DNA of 24,588 nucleotides from a virus: positions 1 to 24,588 of IMG/VR virus record IMGVR_UViG_3300023179_000497; one strand, written 5' to 3'. Below, in pieces: positions 2,157 to 24,462 of this stretch (its first letter is position 1; the number at the start of each line of letters is the position of its first letter). The notes beneath the pieces were generated by a model, which saw nothing but the letters and a program-made list of their open reading frames with translations, was not told where the DNA came from and ran no database searches. Made by a program: the position numbers and the translations under genes.

Positions 2157-2855
2157 GTGGCTGAGCCGCAGATTATCGGGCAGCAAGACAACTTCGGTGC
2201 GGTGCAGGTGCAGGGTCTGACGCAGTTCATCAAAGACATCAGGGCTGCGAGCGATAAGAAGGCTGCCGATGTGCTGATTCGTGAAGCGAATGAGCGTGTG
2301 GCGAAGGTGGTGATTCGTATGGCGAGATCGCTGGCGAACACGAAGCAGGAACGGCGAGCAGCGGAATCGTTAGAGACATCGAGCAGCGTGCAGCAGGTGA
2401 AGGTGAGCATGGGTGGCAGGGCTGCGCCGTATGCAGGTGGTGCGAACTTCGGGTCGTACACCGATCTGCGTCGTCTCATCAAAGCACCGAATCAGCGTGG
2501 TCGCCGCAGCCGTGCGACGATCGTGCGGCAGGGTGAGAGCATTCTGAAAGTCGCTACCCGTGTCGAGTCGCAGTTCGTGTCACGCTCAGGTCGCACCGTG
2601 TCTGCCTTCGAAGGTGGAACACGGGTGAAACTTGCACGCAACTCGTCTGGTGGTCTGCGTGTGATTCGTGGCTGGAATCAGTTCCGTGCGAAGGGTCAAG
2701 AGCCGACACGCTATGCGAAGGGTCGAGACCAGTTTCTGTATCGTGCGGTGACGCTGACGCAAGACCAGATCAGTCAGTCGTATCAAGAGTTCATCGACCG
2801 CATGATCGGGAAGGCGTTCCCTGACGCATCATCTGGCGATAGTGCTGCTGCGTAG
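2157..2855 (+). CDS. putative tail component, HK97 gp10-like
   Basis: This 232-residue protein starts with GTG at 2157, 3 bases after the frameshifted chaperone stop. The N-terminal half (about residues 18-65) has the helix GLTQFIKDIRAASDKKAAD followed by AKVVIRMARSLA, a pattern seen in HK97 gp10-like tail completion proteins, which control the joining of head and tail. The centre is very basic (RGRRSRATIVR). Its place between chaperones and tape measure, rather than before the tube gene, is unusual for gp10. It may be a basic tail-associated protein of another family, so the call is tentative. Confidence 0.45.
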   Translation: MAEPQIIGQQDNFGAVQVQGLTQFIKDIRAASDKKAADVLIREANERVAKVVIRMARSLANTKQERRAAESLETSSSVQQVKVSMGGRAAPYAGGANFGSYTDLRRLIKAPNQRGRRSRATIVRQGESILKVATRVESQFVSRSGRTVSAFEGGTRVKLARNSSGGLRVIRGWNQFRAKGQEPTRYAKGRDQFLYRAVTLTQDQISQSYQEFIDRMIGKAFPDASSGDSAAA

Positions 2856-2866
2856 AATCACCGACT

Positions 2867-5227
2867 ATGGCTGAGCGCAAGTTATCCCTAGTCATTCTCG
2901 GCAAGGCGACTGGTGCGCTCGCCGCCATGAAGAGCGTCGGTGACGAAGCAGGTGGTCTCGGCAAGAAGATCACAGACCTGCTGCCTTCGTTCAAGACGGT
3001 CGCTCTCGCTGGTGCGGCAGCGTTCGGTGCGGTCGCAGCCGCTGCCTTCGGTGCGGCGCAGGCTGCTGCCGAAGATGAACTTAGCCAGAAGAAACTCGCT
3101 GACCAGTTGCGCCGCACGACAGGTGCGACCGATGAGCAGATCGCCGCCGTCGAGCAGAACATCAGCAAGCAGATGATGCTCACGGGCGTGACCGACGATG
3201 AGTTGCGACCTGCTATGGCGAACCTAGTCAGAGCGACTGGCGATGTCGGCTTCGCTCAGCAGCAGTTGTCGCTTGCGCTCGACATCTCTGCGGCGACAGG
3301 CAAAGACTTAGAGAGTGTGTCGCTCGCTCTCGGTAAGGCGTTCACAGGGAATGTCGGTGCGCTCACGAAGTTAGGTGTGCCACTTGATGCGAGCGTCGTG
3401 AGATCGAAGAACCTGAGCGAAGTCGTGGCGACTCTGAACACGCAGTTCGGTGGTGCTGCCGCCGACGCAGCAGACACATTCTCTGGTCGGTTGAAGATAC
3501 TGCAAGTGTCGCTCGGTGAAGCGGTCGAAGGTATCGGCTATGCACTGCTGCCGTTTCTAGAACGGGTGGTGGCGTTCATTCAGGCGAATGTCGTGCCTGT
3601 GATTCAGGCGTTCAGTGACACGCTCGCTGGTGGCGGCGGTCTGCGTCAGGCGTTCGTGAACGCTGCTGCGCAGGCTGGCACATTCGGGCTGCAAGTGATC
3701 GACGCTCTCGAATCGGTGGCGAAGGCAGTCGTGTCGTTCGGCAATGTCGTCGTCACGATCGGCAAGCCGCTGCTTGTAGTCGTCGGTAATCTTGCCGCTG
3801 GTCTCACGCTGCTGGCGACTCTGAACTTTGGCAAGGCAGAGCAGGTGTTCAAGACATTCGAGACTGTGTATCTCGGTCTCGACAAACTGAAAGTGAATGC
3901 TGGTGATGTGTCGAAGGCGTTTGACGGCTTCCGTGCATCGGTGAATCAGCAGGCGAAACTGAACGCTGCTCTGGCGACTGGCGATCTCATCTCACGCAAG
4001 TATGGTCAGACGACGCAAGGCACGACCGATCTGAATGCGCAGTTCGCTAAGACGCTTGCAGAATTGCAGGGTAAGGCTGGTGGTGCTGGCGGTGCGGTGA
4101 AGAAGGCTGCCGACGCAGCGAAGACCTACGGCGATGCGGTGGTGAAGGCTCGTGATGCGACACGCTCGCAGACCGACGCAGCGAAGCAGGTGCAGAAGGC
4201 GCAGGGTGATGTCGCCGCTAAGACGAAGGCTGCCGCCGATGCGCAGGCACGGTTCGACACTGTGGTGCGTGGCTTCCCGTCGAATGCGAGAGAGAGCATC
4301 GAAGCAAACCGCCGTCTCGCTGATGCGCAGCGTGGCGTGCGTGACGCTGGCTTGCAGGTCGCTGACGCTGTGCGTGGCGTGCAGGAAGCCGAGAAGCGTC
4401 TGGCTGATCTGCGTGCGCAGAAGGCTGACGCAGAGAAGGTCGGTGGTGCTGAGCGTGCGCTGGAACGCTCGAAGTACGGTGTGGAAGAAGCGAACTTCCG
4501 TGTGGCTGATGCCGAGCGTGAACTAGCCAAACTGCGTCTCGACCCTGAGTCTTCTGCTACCGAGATTCGTCGTGCCGAGATCGCTCTGCTCGAAGCGAAA
4601 CTCGGTGTGAGCGATGCGATACAAGCGGTCACTGATGCCGAGCGCAGACTGAACGATGAGCGTGACGCTGCGGCGACACCCGATGAGATAGCCGAAGCAG
4701 AACGAAATCTGGAACGGGCGAAGTATGCGGTGACTGATGCGCTCGACGCTCAGACTCAGGCGACCGATGAGCAGTCTGCTGCGCAGCAGAACCTGAACGA
4801 GATCACCTACGGTGCGGTCGTCGGCTCTGCGATCTACAACGCTGCGCTGAAAGAACTCGAAGATGCGAAGGCTGCTCAGGTCGAAGCGTCTGACTCGCTC
4901 GCTGATGCGCTGCGCCGTGAAGCCGATGCGATGCGTGATCTGGTCGAAGCGCAGAAGGCTCTGCTGGCGGTGCAGGGTGCGACGAAGCAGGGTGTGGTGA
5001 ACCGTGTGCAGGCTGGTCTCGGCGTGACGGTCGGTGCTGCTGGCAGCATCGTCGAGCAGGTCGCAGCCGTGTCTGCGGCGACTGGCTCAGCACCTGTCGC
5101 TGGTAGCGGTGTGACGCTGAATGTGACCGCACCGATGTTCACGAATCCCGTCGAGATCGGTACTGAGATCGTTGATGCGCTCGAAGCGTACCTGCGCAGC
5201 AACGGCTCGCTGCCGTTCGCCGTCTAG
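2867..5227 (+). CDS. tape measure protein
   Basis: This 786-residue protein is the longest in the window and sets tail length. It starts MAERKLSLVILGKATGA. There is a hydrophobic alanine-rich segment at about residues 45-68 and another near 295-320 (LLVVVGNLAAGLTLLATL), which fit the membrane-active parts of tape measures that help DNA entry. Residues from about 410 to 720 are a long alanine/glutamate/arginine coiled coil with repeated units (VADAVRGVQEAEKRLADLR, ANFRVADAERELAKLR, AIQAVTDAERRLNDER). At about 0.15 nm per residue it predicts a tail of about 120 nm. Position after the chaperones is diagnostic. Confidence 0.93.
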   Translation: MAERKLSLVILGKATGALAAMKSVGDEAGGLGKKITDLLPSFKTVALAGAAAFGAVAAAAFGAAQAAAEDELSQKKLADQLRRTTGATDEQIAAVEQNISKQMMLTGVTDDELRPAMANLVRATGDVGFAQQQLSLALDISAATGKDLESVSLALGKAFTGNVGALTKLGVPLDASVVRSKNLSEVVATLNTQFGGAAADAADTFSGRLKILQVSLGEAVEGIGYALLPFLERVVAFIQANVVPVIQAFSDTLAGGGGLRQAFVNAAAQAGTFGLQVIDALESVAKAVVSFGNVVVTIGKPLLVVVGNLAAGLTLLATLNFGKAEQVFKTFETVYLGLDKLKVNAGDVSKAFDGFRASVNQQAKLNAALATGDLISRKYGQTTQGTTDLNAQFAKTLAELQGKAGGAGGAVKKAADAAKTYGDAVVKARDATRSQTDAAKQVQKAQGDVAAKTKAAADAQARFDTVVRGFPSNARESIEANRRLADAQRGVRDAGLQVADAVRGVQEAEKRLADLRAQKADAEKVGGAERALERSKYGVEEANFRVADAERELAKLRLDPESSATEIRRAEIALLEAKLGVSDAIQAVTDAERRLNDERDAAATPDEIAEAERNLERAKYAVTDALDAQTQATDEQSAAQQNLNEITYGAVVGSAIYNAALKELEDAKAAQVEASDSLADALRREADAMRDLVEAQKALLAVQGATKQGVVNRVQAGLGVTVGAAGSIVEQVAAVSAATGSAPVAGSGVTLNVTAPMFTNPVEIGTEIVDALEAYLRSNGSLPFAV

Positions 5228-14500: not shown

Positions 14501-14748
14501 AGCAGTGGCGCAGACTCGCTGCGTGTCTCGGCGCAGACGGCAGCATCTTCTTCCCGACTCAGCGCAAGTTCAGTGCTCGCACATGGCGACCAGCACGAGC
14601 GATCTGCGAGACCTGCACGGTGCGTGAAGAGTGTCTGGCTATGGCTCTCGCCGTGCGTGAGACAGAAGACCGCTGGGGTATGTTCGGCGGCATGACACCG
14701 AGCGAACGCAGGGTGCATCGACGCACGATACGGCAGCAGCAGCGATGA
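14497..14748 (+). CDS. WhiB-like iron-sulfur transcription factor
   Basis: I choose GTG 14497, which overlaps the upstream stop by 4 bases, rather than an ATG at 14437; the product is 83 residues. Cysteines 10, 37, 40 and 46 (CxxC and CxxxxxC) are the four ligands of the [4Fe-4S] cluster, and RWGMFGGMTPSER (59-71) is the conserved turn before the basic C-terminal helix (RRVHRRTIRQQQR). WhiB proteins bind the housekeeping sigma factor and DNA. Phage copies can repress host genes, as with WhiBTM4. This gene is strong evidence for an actinobacterial host. Confidence 0.92.
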   Translation: MKQWRRLAACLGADGSIFFPTQRKFSARTWRPARAICETCTVREECLAMALAVRETEDRWGMFGGMTPSERRVHRRTIRQQQR

Positions 14749-15548
14749 CGCAGCGGTTCATCTCATACGGTGGCGGCGTGCAAAGCACTGCGCTCATCGT
14801 GCTCGCAGTGACTGGTCGCATCGAGCCAGTCGATGCAGCACTGTTCTGCAACACGGGCGACGACTCTGAGCACCCTGACACACTTCGATTCGTGAGAGAG
14901 ATCGCCGTGCCGTATGCACGAAGTCATGGTCTGCCGATACATGAGATTCAGCGAGTGACGAAAGGCGAGCCGCAAACGCTATGGGGTCGCATGATGAATC
15001 ACACAAGAGACAGTCTGCAAGAACCGATTCCCGTGTACGGCTGGAAGGGTGCGCCGATGTCACGAGCCTGCACGGTCGATCACAAGATTCTGGTGCTGAA
15101 ACGGTGGCTGAAACAGAACTGCGAGACGCTTCCAGTCGAGACGCTCATCGGTATTTCGGTCGATGAGATAGAAAGAGCGAAGACTGGCGAATCTGACTAT
15201 GAGATTCGTCGCTATCCACTGCTCGATCTCGGAATGAACCGCACAGACTGCGCCAAAGTAATCAGCGATGCTGGTCTGCCCGTGCCGCCGAAGTCATCGT
15301 GCTTCTTCTGCCCGTTTCATTCGTTGCTCACATGGTCTGAACTTCGCCGTGATCGACCCGATCTGTTCGAGAAGGCGGCGCAACTTGAAGATGTGCTGAA
15401 CGAGCGTCGAGCGAGACGAGAGAAACCGCCCGTGCATCTGACACGCAAACAGCAGCCCCTTCGTGATGCGATACCGATAGCGCAAGACTCGCTCTTCGCA
15501 AGTGATGAAATGGAAGGTCAGTGCGACGGCGGCGTGTGCTTCGTATGA
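14745..15548 (+). CDS. PP-loop ATPase, PAPS-reductase-like, with possible Fe-S cysteines
   Basis: This is a 267-residue protein of the adenine nucleotide alpha-hydrolase superfamily. Its PP-loop is SYGGGVQST (7-15) and the second motif is GISVDEIERAK (136-146). Cysteines at 109, 169, 186 and 189 (SSCFFCPF) and a C-terminal CDGGVC (260-265) could hold an Fe-S cluster, as in DndC and several tRNA-thiolation enzymes. Phages often carry PAPS-reductase-like genes whose function is mostly unknown; sulfur modification of nucleic acid is one possibility. The start overlaps WhiB by 4 bases (ATGA). Confidence 0.75.
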   Translation: MTQRFISYGGGVQSTALIVLAVTGRIEPVDAALFCNTGDDSEHPDTLRFVREIAVPYARSHGLPIHEIQRVTKGEPQTLWGRMMNHTRDSLQEPIPVYGWKGAPMSRACTVDHKILVLKRWLKQNCETLPVETLIGISVDEIERAKTGESDYEIRRYPLLDLGMNRTDCAKVISDAGLPVPPKSSCFFCPFHSLLTWSELRRDRPDLFEKAAQLEDVLNERRARREKPPVHLTRKQQPLRDAIPIAQDSLFASDEMEGQCDGGVCFV

Positions 15549-21121: not shown

Positions 21122-21291
21122 TCGTGCGCTGCATGACCTGCCAGCATCTCGTCGTAGGTTCGAGAAATGCGACGGTCGGGTGCGTTTGCGACCCTGACGC
21201 ACCGACATGGCTCGCTGTGGTGAACGATGAGCGCATCATCGGTGGCACATACCGCTACTACATACCGCTGCACGCATCGCCAGATGAGTGA
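21118..21291 (+). CDS. 57-residue zinc-ribbon-like protein
   Basis: ATG 21118 overlaps the microprotein stop by 4 bases. The product has CMTC (residues 5-8) and CVC (22-24), four cysteines placed like a small rubredoxin or zinc ribbon, followed by a beta-rich half (WLAVVNDERIIGGTYRYYIP). It overlaps the methyltransferase start by 8 bases, so it may be co-translated with it and might be an accessory factor, though nothing shows this directly. Confidence 0.55.
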   Translation: MIVRCMTCQHLVVGSRNATVGCVCDPDAPTWLAVVNDERIIGGTYRYYIPLHASPDE

Positions 21292-22552
21292 CGCACGCTG
21301 GCGTGTAGAGCACGGCGACTGCCGCACACTGCTACGCACTCTGCCTGATCAGTCGATAGATGCGATCGTGACCGACCCACCGTATGAACTCGGCTTCATG
21401 GGCAAGGCGTGGGATTCGACAGGCATCGCCTATCAGGTCGATGTGTGGCGTGAGTGTCTGCGTGTATTGAAGCACGGCGGTCATCTGCTCGCATTCGGCG
21501 GCTCACGCACCTATCACCGTCTCGCCTGTGCTGTGGAGGACGCAGGGTTTCAGATTCGTGATCAGATCATGTGGGTGTACGGCTCAGGCTTCCCCAAGTC
21601 GCTCGATGTCAGCAAAGCCATCGACAAGGCAGCTGGGGCGAAACGAAACATCATTGGGGAACGACGGGGCGTCGTCAAGGGAACCGGAGGAAGATACAAC
21701 TGGCACACCGATTCGGAATCAGTTGGACAGACCATTATTCGAGACTCAATGCCGGCGACGGATGCTGCGAAGCAGTGGCAGGGTTGGGGTACTGCGTTGA
21801 AGCCTGCGCATGAGCCGATCGTGCTTGCCCGTAAGCCGCTTGACGGTACGGTGGCGCAGAATGTGTTGTGGTATGGCACAGGCGCACTCAACATCGACGG
21901 TTGTAGAGTCGAAGGCGCAGACGGTGACGGTGTATGGGGAGCTTCCAACGCCACAGTGAATCATCAAGACAGAATGTTCAACGGTTCGATGAATCCCGAT
22001 TACAGGTCGCAACGACATTCGCTTGGTCGCTTCCCTGCGAATCTGATTCATGACGGCAGCGACGAAGTGCTGCAACTGTTCCCTGATAGCAAGTCACCTG
22101 CGACCGTCACTCGTGGCGGCGCACGCCAGATGTCATTCGGTATGGGCGAGCAGGTAGATGTGCCGTGGTACGACGACAGCGGTTCTGCTGCTCGGTTCTT
22201 CTACTGTGCGAAAGCGAGTAAGACGGATCGCAACGAAGGTCTCGAAGAACTACCTGCTCACGCTCCCGTGTTTGGTGATAACGGCGGCACTTATCGTGGT
22301 CTATCGGCAAGCAAGAATCCGCAGGCGAATCATCACCCGACGGTGAAGCCGACCATGCTGATGCGCTATCTGGTGCGGTTAGTGACGCAGCCTGACGGTG
22401 TGGTACTCGACCCGTTCACTGGCTCAGGTTCGACAGGCAAGGCGTGTGTGCTGGAAGGGTTTCGGTTCGTCGGGTTCGAGCAGTCTGCCGACTATGTGGC
22501 GATCGCTCAGGCTCGCATCAACTACGCTGAGCAGCATCATGGCGAAGGGTGA
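21284..22552 (+). CDS. beta-class N4/N6 DNA methyltransferase
   Basis: The start at ATG 21284 (MSDARWRVEHGDC) is preferred to 21227; the product is 422 residues. The catalytic DPPY (31-34) precedes the AdoMet-binding motif DPFTGSGSTG (376-385), the order of beta-class N6-adenine or N4-cytosine methyltransferases. The middle (about 105-350) is a large variable, target-recognition-type region. The coding style changes inside it: GGG/GGA codons appear, and it holds the only AGCT and two of three CCGG sites in the window, suggesting recombination. It would protect phage DNA or build a base modification with its neighbours. Confidence 0.88.
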   Translation: MSDARWRVEHGDCRTLLRTLPDQSIDAIVTDPPYELGFMGKAWDSTGIAYQVDVWRECLRVLKHGGHLLAFGGSRTYHRLACAVEDAGFQIRDQIMWVYGSGFPKSLDVSKAIDKAAGAKRNIIGERRGVVKGTGGRYNWHTDSESVGQTIIRDSMPATDAAKQWQGWGTALKPAHEPIVLARKPLDGTVAQNVLWYGTGALNIDGCRVEGADGDGVWGASNATVNHQDRMFNGSMNPDYRSQRHSLGRFPANLIHDGSDEVLQLFPDSKSPATVTRGGARQMSFGMGEQVDVPWYDDSGSAARFFYCAKASKTDRNEGLEELPAHAPVFGDNGGTYRGLSASKNPQANHHPTVKPTMLMRYLVRLVTQPDGVVLDPFTGSGSTGKACVLEGFRFVGFEQSADYVAIAQARINYAEQHHGEG

Positions 22553-23078
22553 TCTGGATACTCAGACTGTCGAGATCGGGTCGGTGCGACCGCACCCGAA
22601 GAATGTTCGGCAGGGTGACATCGGTGCGATCTCAGAGTCGTTGAAGGCGCACGGTCAGTATCGGTCGATCGTGGTGCAGCGCAGCACAGGTCACATACTC
22701 GCAGGGAATCACACATGGAAGGCGGCGAAGGCTCTCGGCTGGTCTCACATCTCTACGCACTTCATCGACTGTGATGATGAGCAGGCGATGCGCATACTGC
22801 TCGCAGACAACCGTGCCAACGATCTAGCGACTTATGACCAGTCGGCTCTGGCGACAGTGCTCGCAGAACTGAACGCCACCGATCTCGGTCTCGCTGGCAC
22901 GCTGTATGACGGTGACGCACTCGATGATGTCATCAAAGACATGAATAATGACGGTCTGCCGATTTCATTTGATTCAAAGTACGAAGTCATCATCGAATGC
23001 AGTGATGAACAGATGCAAGCAGACATTCTTGAACGACTGAACGGCGAAGGTCTAACAGTTAGAGCCGTCACCGTATGA
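22539..23078 (+). CDS. ParB/Srx-fold protein coupled to the methyltransferase
   Basis: ATG 22539 overlaps the methyltransferase by 14 bases; the product is 179 residues. The N-terminal 95 residues are a ParB/sulfiredoxin domain: SVRPHPKNVR (15-24), SIVVQRSTGHILAGNHTWKAA (43-63), with the AGNH-xxx-A box, and the helix MRILLADNRAND. The C-terminal end (YEVIIECSDEQMQADILERL) is a module common in phage ParB-methyltransferase pairs. ParB-fold proteins bind or hydrolyse nucleotides (CTP) and some are nucleases. The last third is richer in A/T than the first, hinting at a recombination boundary. A role guiding DNA modification is inferred. Confidence 0.8.
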   Translation: MAKGDLDTQTVEIGSVRPHPKNVRQGDIGAISESLKAHGQYRSIVVQRSTGHILAGNHTWKAAKALGWSHISTHFIDCDDEQAMRILLADNRANDLATYDQSALATVLAELNATDLGLAGTLYDGDALDDVIKDMNNDGLPISFDSKYEVIIECSDEQMQADILERLNGEGLTVRAVTV

Positions 23079-24175
23079 CCGACATTCGGCTGACTAGCCG
23101 AATCGAGAACACTGCACGAGTCATACAGATTCGTGGAATGTTTGACATCAAAGCATCAAAGACAGAAACAGTAGTTATCAAAGATAATCTGCCGAATCTG
23201 GACGAGCGATCGTGGAACATCGGTCTCATTGTCGGCGCATCAGGCACAGGTAAGAGCACTATCGCCAAAGAACGCTTCAAGGAATGTTTCGACCCACAAG
23301 TGTCGTGGAATGAACACTCGCTAATAGACAACTTCGACAAGAAGCAACATCTGAAAGACATCGTGAACATTCTTACAGCAGTGGGCTTATCCAGCCCACC
23401 CACATGGCTTCGACCATTCGATTCACTATCCACAGGCGAGAAGTTCAGAGCAACGACCGCAAGACTTCTGCTCGACTATCCGCAACTAGTCGCAGTCGAT
23501 GAGTTCACATCAGTCGTCGATCGAACTGTCGCACAAGTCGCCTCATGTGCTATCGCAAAGACCGTCAGAAAGAGACAGCAACGATTCGTGGCAGTGTCGT
23601 GTCATTACGACATCATCGAATGGCTGCAACCCGACTGGCTGTACGAACCGCACAGCGGTCACTTCGAATGGAGGTCACTTCGGCAACGCCCACCGATTCA
23701 CGCCAGAATCATCTCGGTTGATACGCAAGCGTGGCAACTATTCGCACGACATCACTATCTAGATAGCACTCTGCATCAAGCAGCAAGATGCTTCGTCACA
23801 CTAATCGAGAACATTCCAGCCGTCTTCATCGCAGTTCTACCGTTGCCACACCCGAAACTGACTAACGCCTATCGAGTGTCACGCATCGTCACCATGCCAG
23901 ACTTTCAAGGCATCGGCATCGGCACGCAAGTATTGACGACCATTGCTGCCGCATACAGAGCACATCAGAAACATCTCTACATCACTACAAGTCACCCAGC
24001 ACTCATGCGATCACTGAACTCAAACAGGGAATGGCAGATGACACGCAAACCTTCAAGAGTGACAGCCATAGGCAAGACCAGCACTATTCGCTACAAGCCA
24101 GAGTCAGCCAACCGAATCACTGCATCATTCAGATACATCGGTCAGTCGAATCAACACGCAGCAGCCCTTCTATGA
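23075..24175 (+). CDS. ABC-type ATPase fused to a GNAT acyltransferase domain (COG2401-like)
   Basis: This is a 366-residue protein. Residues 45-200 form a compact ABC ATPase: Walker A GASGTGKST (54-62), signature LSTGEK (118-123), Walker B LVAVDE (138-143) with the catalytic glutamate, and a switch histidine (SCH, 175-177). There is no membrane domain. Residues about 210-350 are a GNAT fold with the acetyl-CoA loop RIVTMPDFQGIGIGTQVL (270-287). Such fusions (COG2401 type) are rare. The gene is clearly more A/T-rich than its surroundings, so it was probably acquired. Overlap with ParB on the left and HNH on the right (ATGA) puts it in one cassette. Confidence 0.8.
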   Translation: MTDIRLTSRIENTARVIQIRGMFDIKASKTETVVIKDNLPNLDERSWNIGLIVGASGTGKSTIAKERFKECFDPQVSWNEHSLIDNFDKKQHLKDIVNILTAVGLSSPPTWLRPFDSLSTGEKFRATTARLLLDYPQLVAVDEFTSVVDRTVAQVASCAIAKTVRKRQQRFVAVSCHYDIIEWLQPDWLYEPHSGHFEWRSLRQRPPIHARIISVDTQAWQLFARHHYLDSTLHQAARCFVTLIENIPAVFIAVLPLPHPKLTNAYRVSRIVTMPDFQGIGIGTQVLTTIAAAYRAHQKHLYITTSHPALMRSLNSNREWQMTRKPSRVTAIGKTSTIRYKPESANRITASFRYIGQSNQHAAALL

Positions 24176-24462
24176 CCATACGCAGACCGTGCATCAACTG
24201 CGGCACACTCACCACACGCACCACGAGATGCGACAACTGCCAGCCGATACACGACTCGCTCTACGACGCTGAGTATCGACGCATCGCACACATCATCAGA
24301 GCCACCGCAGTCACCTGCCACATCTGCGGCGAAGGCGCACGACCAGACGACCCATTCACCGCAGACCACATCAGACCACGAGACCCGACATCACCACTCG
24401 CCGCAGCACACAGATCATGCAACACACGCAAAGGCAACCGACCACCACACTCACCACGATGA
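24172..24462 (+). CDS. HNH endonuclease (packaging-type)
   Basis: ATG 24172 overlaps the previous stop (ATGA); the product is 96 residues. Two CxxC pairs at 7/10 and 20/23 form a small N-terminal zinc knuckle. The HNH core is CHIC (49-52), ADHIRPRD (64-71, with H66), AAHRSCNTRKG (78-88, with H80, C83 and N84). In many actinophages and HK97-type phages such small HNH proteins lie right beside the cos site and terminase and are needed for cleavage by terminase. The following C-rich repeats agree with this role. Confidence 0.85.
   Translation: MTIRRPCINCGTLTTRTTRCDNCQPIHDSLYDAEYRRIAHIIRATAVTCHICGEGARPDDPFTADHIRPRDPTSPLAAAHRSCNTRKGNRPPHSPR

Follow-up and report, generated by a model that had tools for sequence, protein, structure and literature searches.

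What does a phage gain from a protein that joins an ABC ATPase to a GNAT acyltransferase, and which of the surrounding genes work with it? The question is raised by the 24,588-base virus record IMGVR_UViG_3300023179_000497, analyzed here in its entirety and called the window, which codes for such a fusion (P0003) directly after a DNA methyltransferase (P0001) and a ParB-fold protein (P0002). In what we call the original prediction, these three overlapping genes were taken as a candidate DNA modification system. Its description of the locus was confirmed, as the three open reading frames (ORFs) are open on the plus strand and overlap by 14 nucleotides (nt) (P0001/P0002, 22539-22552) and 4 nt (P0002/P0003, 23075-23078), and Pfam and PHROGs agree on the identities of all three genes. 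Regarding the system itself, the pairing of ParB with ABC-GNAT was borne out, while the methyltransferase did not hold as a member, and the working unit is a duo of ParB followed by ABC-GNAT, not a trio. We consider it somewhat probable that the ParB-tethered ABC-GNAT acylates a base of the phage DNA before packaging, for protection. The core of this hypothesis is already in print: Iyer et al. 2021 (PMC7824862) carry the prediction that a GNAT coupled to an ABC ATPase makes an uncharacterized acyl modification of a DNA base and, in the part of that paper available to us, credited the prediction to Iyer et al. 2013 and named Tenacibaculum phage pT24. This phage encodes a homolog of P0003 (tblastn E value of 1e-62, 35.3% identity over 100% of the query), and P0003 has the same architecture as the predicted DNA acylation family.

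The fusion is well defined. P0003 matches one PHROG of unknown function, phrog_11143, over essentially its full length (residues 3 to 360 of 366), so the ABC-GNAT fusion is a real family, and PF00005 and PF00583 both score above the cutoff, as expected for joined ABC and GNAT domains. A tblastn search with P0003 retrieved 69 phage records, 45 of them with at least 80% cover, and some Firmicutes phages encode the ABC and GNAT halves in two distinct genes that overlap. The ABC half carries a Walker A motif (residues 54 to 61), the signature LSTGE (118 to 122), the Walker B pair D142-E143, and the H-loop histidine H177; across a 71-sequence alignment the Walker and signature positions vary little or not at all, and the H-loop and the Walker B glutamate are intact. 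In the GNAT half, W220, F223, H227, Y228, R270, P275, G279, and W320 are invariant in 140 of 140 sequences, and the QGxGxG loop is intact, reading QGIGIG at residues 278 to 283 as originally noted. The AlphaFold2 model of P0003 has a pLDDT of 95.2 and a pTM of 0.90 (the alignments for the structure models had 71 rows each, picked from larger sets). VIA-align, whose result list for this model was mostly occupied by matches to the ABC half, places residues 1 to 203 among ABC cassettes (1f3o, Z 14.5, root mean square deviation [rmsd] 3.1, 180 aligned residues; Z of about 14 against MJ0796 and MalK) and residues 208 to 357 among GNATs (1y9k, Z 14.6, rmsd 3.6, 138 aligned; 2bsw, Z 14.1, rmsd 2.8, 132 aligned). 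With motifs intact or invariant and both folds matched, both the ATPase and the acyltransferase of P0003 look active, judging from motifs and model. No transporter permease was noticed near P0003, no search having been aimed at permeases.

The association with ParB is nearly constant. Neighborhoods of ABC-GNAT genes were taken from 15 phages, from 80 contigs out of 590 viral relatives, and from 80 contigs out of 432 prokaryote relatives, and a ParB hidden Markov model (HMM) found a match upstream of 157 of the 174 ABC ORFs, within 400 nt in 151 of these. An overlap of exactly 22 nt is the most frequent one between ParB and ABC-GNAT (71 of the 157, with start codons assigned mechanically). Among the 17 ABC ORFs with no upstream match, five lie at a contig edge, one belongs to a fusion (L127), one reflects a start-call artifact (L117), and two (L009 and L030) have instead a short ORF corresponding only to the C-terminal end, or tail, of these ParB proteins. 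The pair is also present in Pseudoalteromonas phage SL25 (L001: 4447-5001 and 4980-6050), where both genes are unannotated in the record, and in many Nonomuraea chromosomes (L111, L115-L117, L123, L124, L129, L130, L142, and relatives).

P0002 itself has a ParB_N domain, as seen from the Pfam match and from the fit of residues 6 to 136 to Noc (7ng0; VIA Z 14.2, rmsd 2.6, 129 residues). It has the fold of the ParB/Noc CTPase domain and not the full ParB/Spo0J architecture, as TIGR00180 scores 29.7 bits against a cutoff of 58.45 and the Pfam scan gave no helix-turn-helix (HTH) family match. NTP binding requires an arginine in Box II according to the available part of PMC12704722; P0002 reads GNHT where it is expected, and in a Box II motif count over ParBs, 60 of 156 fell outside the search pattern. 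The distinguishing region is C terminal. The ParBs preceding ABC-GNAT end in a beta-alpha-beta segment of about 36 residues, and the AlphaFold2 model of P0002 (pLDDT of 90.7) is confident for the ParB domain and the tail helix (residues 157 to 169) and weaker for the linker (confidence of 63 to 74 by block); the fold search barely covered the tail. A tail HMM reached at least 10 bits in 158 of 158 ParB-type matches adjoining ABC, a count that includes two tail-only ORFs and is largely obtained by construction, as the training set of the HMM consisted of ABC-linked ParBs; none of them has a CxxC motif in the last 60 residues. By comparison, 0 of 86 ParBs adjoining Mom, the DNA modification protein discussed below, reached 10 bits, and 82 of the 86 have the CxxC, a knuckle that takes the place of the tail. 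Where neither ABC nor Mom is close, 8 of 91 ParBs reached 10 bits, and all 8 loci hold an ABC-GNAT that is farther off or broken. An independent scan with the ParB N domain (80 loci, L183-L262) recovered tail-bearing ParBs in three loci, all three with ABC-GNAT, and one ABC-GNAT locus with no tail, L190, in which the order is reversed and a tail-less ABC-GNAT (1244-2356) precedes a longer ParB-domain protein (2356-3546). At some Nonomuraea loci, 0.8 to 2.5 kb separates the tail-bearing ParB from ABC-GNAT.

The tail can also be detached. In Pseudomonas phage Komp_PAO1_1, a 49-residue micro-ORF annotated as hypothetical (L009:4849-4998; phrog_28816, a family of unknown function, E value of 1.1e-21) consists of the tail alone, and similar free ORFs, unannotated or hypothetical, were found at L030:5843-6013 (56 residues), L427:1492-1617 (41 residues), and L428:1522-1644 (40 residues). 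All of them lie directly 5' of ABC-GNAT in phages with no ParB there, and in L426 the tail terminates a 129-residue ORF with no evident ParB. A tblastn search with the Komp_PAO1_1 micro-ORF returned 4 phage records, with ABC-GNAT adjoining in 4 of 4. At the opposite extreme, a Gemmataceae metagenome-assembled genome codes for ParB, tail, ABC, and GNAT in a single ORF of 611 residues (L127:5248-7083).

This behavior is reflected in how the four parts (ParB domain, tail, ABC, and GNAT) covary. We compared their pairwise distances over 140 ParB/ABC-GNAT pairs, 84 after dereplication, and the correlations over these 84 were 0.59 for ABC with GNAT, 0.49 for tail with ABC, and 0.38 for tail with GNAT, falling to 0.11 for the ParB domain with ABC and to -0.003 for the ParB domain with its own tail. 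The bootstrap interval for the tail-ABC minus ParB-ABC difference was 0.21 to 0.53, every 36-column window of the ParB domain gave a correlation of at most 0.15, and the partial correlations were 0.35 for tail with ABC given GNAT and 0.14 for tail with GNAT given ABC. Tail and ABC domain thus travel together, and the ParB domain gets exchanged. The covariation would be read most simply as docking of the tail on the ABC half.

The target of the enzyme is suggested by a replacement. Arthrobacter phage EastWest codes, in this order, for gp73, ParB gp74, ABC-GNAT gp75, a DNA-binding protein, and a sliding clamp, and Arthrobacter phage Sicarius2 for gp70, ParB gp71, gp72, an HTH protein, and a sliding clamp. 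Between the two phages, identity is 67%, 71%, and 53% for the flanking proteins and 60% over 129 residues for the ParB N domains. Pfam assigns Sicarius2 gp72 to Mom (PF25680, E value of 6.6e-59), and in the ParB of this phage a CxxC segment forms the C terminus in place of the tail. A ParB-Mom pair of this kind is also present in Microbacterium phage Appa, and a ParB lies upstream in 79 of 80 viral loci holding relatives of gp72, in a Mom set that was collected with single-protein queries and is therefore biased to the ParB-linked Sicarius2 clade; one clade of Mom thus follows a ParB gene just as ABC-GNAT does. The Mu Mom record is annotated as an adenine modification enzyme acting just prior to packaging. 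Since Mom replaces ABC-GNAT beside a related ParB, ABC-GNAT would, by analogy, also act on DNA, and this swap is the best evidence here that supports DNA as its target. Near-constant pairing, the Mom swap, and the prediction in the available part of PMC7824862 together support the DNA modification reading for ParB and ABC-GNAT but not for the trio. Both types of gene occur in the genome of Aeromonas phage PX29 (L008), which holds a Mom homolog (H95) and an ABC-GNAT.

Besides the largely built-in tail count, several observations weigh against this reading. The comparison with Mom that the original prediction called for did not place the GNAT half with Mom by sequence, and on sequence grounds we do not class it as a Mom-family member. 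P0003 has no PF25680 match at E values up to 0.1, whereas the positive control, Sicarius2 gp72, was matched at the value given above; the profile likeness is marginal, with 45 to 47 columns aligned at 5 to 7% probability. With a deep Mom HMM, the median score was -1.8 bits for 110 ABC-GNAT halves (2 above 10) and -5.2 bits for 30 generic GNAT ORFs (0 above 5), the latter being the survivors of length and duplicate filters from 50 loci, and a reverse HMM of the ABC-GNAT GNAT half exceeded 5 bits in 0 of 50 Mom proteins and 2 of 30 generic GNATs. Mom also has no ABC half, and the QGxGxG loop present in P0003 was not seen in the Mom alignment. Early in the domain both alignments show an invariant His-Tyr pair, residues with a role in Mom, a likeness recognized by eye. 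Mom has the GNAT fold according to the available part of PMC7824862, and our literature search on Mom chemistry found no paper on its mechanism. Furthermore, no ParB stands beside Mom outside the Sicarius2 clade, either in five other loci (0 of 5; L176, L179-L182) or in the Mu-type loci read (0 of 33). As for the duo, the 17 ABC ORFs with no upstream ParB match include eight with neither ParB nor tail (L003, L006, L007, L008, L014, L152, L160, and L174). When the 171 ABC loci with 200 nt or more of upstream sequence were scanned by HMM, 10 had no tail match, namely, P12024S, pT24, VmeM-32, PX29, and phage 9184, together with L152, L160, L174, L190, and L117 (the start-call artifact), so ParB or the tail is not strictly required. 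Last, the covariation of tail and ABC may stem from coinheritance with no contact. The tail-less ABC-GNAT of L152 (5995-7191) lies in a contig titled Woesearchaeota archaeon and adjoins an ORF that by eye is primase/helicase-like.

Taking the duo as a DNA modifier, we can propose how it would work. ABC-GNAT would be the enzyme, probably an ATP-sandwich dimer, with a GNAT half that would move an acyl group from acyl-CoA and an ABC half that would gate or power access to the target. The C-terminal tail of ParB would dock on the ABC half and tether the enzyme to the ParB-fold guide, which would bind DNA or a nucleotide. The product would most likely be an acylated DNA base, at adenine N6 or cytosine N4, and a modification made before packaging would confer resistance to host nucleases. 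In a broader and more tentative form of this model, which we hold as possible and somewhat short of an even chance, ParB would be an exchangeable guide for phage base acyltransferases, with the N domain as chassis and the C terminus as plug (the tail for ABC-GNAT, the CxxC knuckle for Mom), and ABC-GNAT would be an ATP-gated nucleobase acyltransferase with a previously unrecognized docking subunit of about 40 residues, either free or fused to ParB.

Other targets can be considered for the GNAT half. The available part of PMC7824862 predicts modification of host proteins by many jumbo-phage GNATs, and the VIA matches of the GNAT half are to generic acetyltransferases, so it could acylate a host protein (e.g., RNA polymerase or a nuclease), like phage Rac, with ParB and ABC serving for targeting or timing. 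We regard this as unlikely, as the partner is almost always a ParB-fold protein and, in a syntenic phage, the position of ABC-GNAT is taken by a member of the Mom family. The target could also be a nucleobase in tRNA or mRNA, as for TmcA/NAT10, the N4-acetylcytidine synthase, in which an ATPase is fused to a GNAT. Foldseek lists TmcA (2zpa) third for P0003, spanning both halves at an rmsd of 13.5 Å, and P0003 has a weak similarity to PF13718 (E value of 0.086). However, TmcA has an RNA substrate and an ATPase of the helicase type, not ABC, and both the ParB partner and the swap with Mom speak for DNA, leaving an RNA target with a small chance. The third possibility is that the pair aids DNA partition or packaging, with the GNAT acting on packaging proteins. 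Apart from the ParB fold, this is suggested by gene order: in the viral loci, the gene after ABC-GNAT matched a terminase small subunit family in 11 of 54 and a large subunit family in 4 of 54, others matching further terminase families (the 54 of 77 genes scanned were on the same strand, excluding opposite-strand genes and L021, L025, and L028), and in several named phages terminase genes follow a short distance downstream. We find it quite improbable, since P0002 has no HTH match in Pfam, the GNAT loop is conserved, and Mom substitutes in the same slot. For a protective modification, expression shortly before packaging would suit as well. The window ends 126 nt past a small HNH nuclease gene (P0004), so the gene that follows it is outside the window.

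The methyltransferase is probably a neighbor and not a component of the module. P0001 has the motifs DPPY and then DPFTGSGSTG, an order that fits a beta-class DNA methyltransferase, and its ORF has an alternative upstream start at 21227. Recurring linkage of the trio had been set as a test by the original prediction; in a check that took in 50 of the 80 viral loci, PF01555 was present in 3 of the 50 records carrying ABC-GNAT, near in L040 and distant in L048 and L088. A methyltransferase HMM, trained on close relatives only, had five matches in the fetched loci, in the window, L040, and L139 and, further away, in L048 and L102. The gene upstream of ParB varies between loci (34 of 60 upstream genes scanned). 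The trio as a unit was therefore rejected and, with the methyltransferase rarely linked to ABC-GNAT, the comparison lends no support to methylation as a step of the acylation pathway. Despite the 14-nt overlap in the window, repeated by a related methyltransferase in L139, and its relative in the same locus in L040, a single hypermodification pathway, with one base as the target of both methyltransferase and ABC-GNAT, is very improbable given this rare linkage and variable 5' gene. Membership in a restriction-modification system is not seen either, as a methyltransferase and a cognate nuclease are not conserved together with ABC-GNAT. P0004, which was absent from the original prediction, overlaps P0003 by 4 nt and is a small phage-type HNH. 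PADLOC gave methyltransferase matches and weak ATPase matches, and the same phage codes for a sulfur-related enzyme, a PAPS-reductase-like protein (14745-15548; phrog_424, E value of 4e-38). The coordinates of the locus are collected in Table 1.

Table 1. Genes and protein segments of the ParB/ABC-GNAT locus, with positions in the window
Feature	Length (residues)	Position	Strand	Evidence or remark
Beta-class N6/N4 DNA methyltransferase (P0001)	422	21284..22552	+	PF01555, E 2.7e-32; phrog_67, E 5.5e-77; neighbor, probably outside the module
ParB-fold protein with C-terminal tail (P0002)	179	22539..23078	+	PF02195 (ParB_N), E 1.2e-6
Beta-alpha-beta tail, P0002 residues 144-179		22968..23075	+	Proposed docking element for the ABC domain
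ABC ATPase-GNAT fusion (P0003)	366	23075..24175	+	phrog_11143, E 5.7e-108
ABC ATPase half, P0003 residues 1-205		23075..23689	+	ABC_tran PF00005, E 1.5e-6
GNAT half, P0003 residues 206-366		23690..24172	+	Acetyltransf_1 PF00583, E 1.2e-4
Small HNH nuclease gene (P0004)	96	24172..24462	+	PF01844, E 6.9e-5; phrog_338, E 8.4e-7

A DNA modification role for ABC-GNAT has been predicted for years, and the literature consulted here names no substrate. What may be new is the duo as a recurring unit, the detachable tail that also exists as a free ORF of 40 to 56 residues, and the Mom swap. The available part of PMC7824862 mentions no ParB partner or tail, and pT24, unlike the window, lacks the tail. 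Neither a ParB tail nor a Mom/ABC-GNAT swap is described in the available parts of PMC7824862, PMC12704722, PMC10853773, and PMC12839542 or in our literature searches, which left subscription literature mostly uncovered; PMC8670742 gave no match to GNAT or Mom terms, and for Leptospira phages we looked for restriction data and found none. The isolated phages EastWest, Sicarius2, Jace, SL25, and Komp_PAO1_1 open the prediction to direct tests, with the same guide and two enzymes. If true, the plug-and-guide model would show how phages aim base-modifying enzymes and would give a role to many phage ParB genes.

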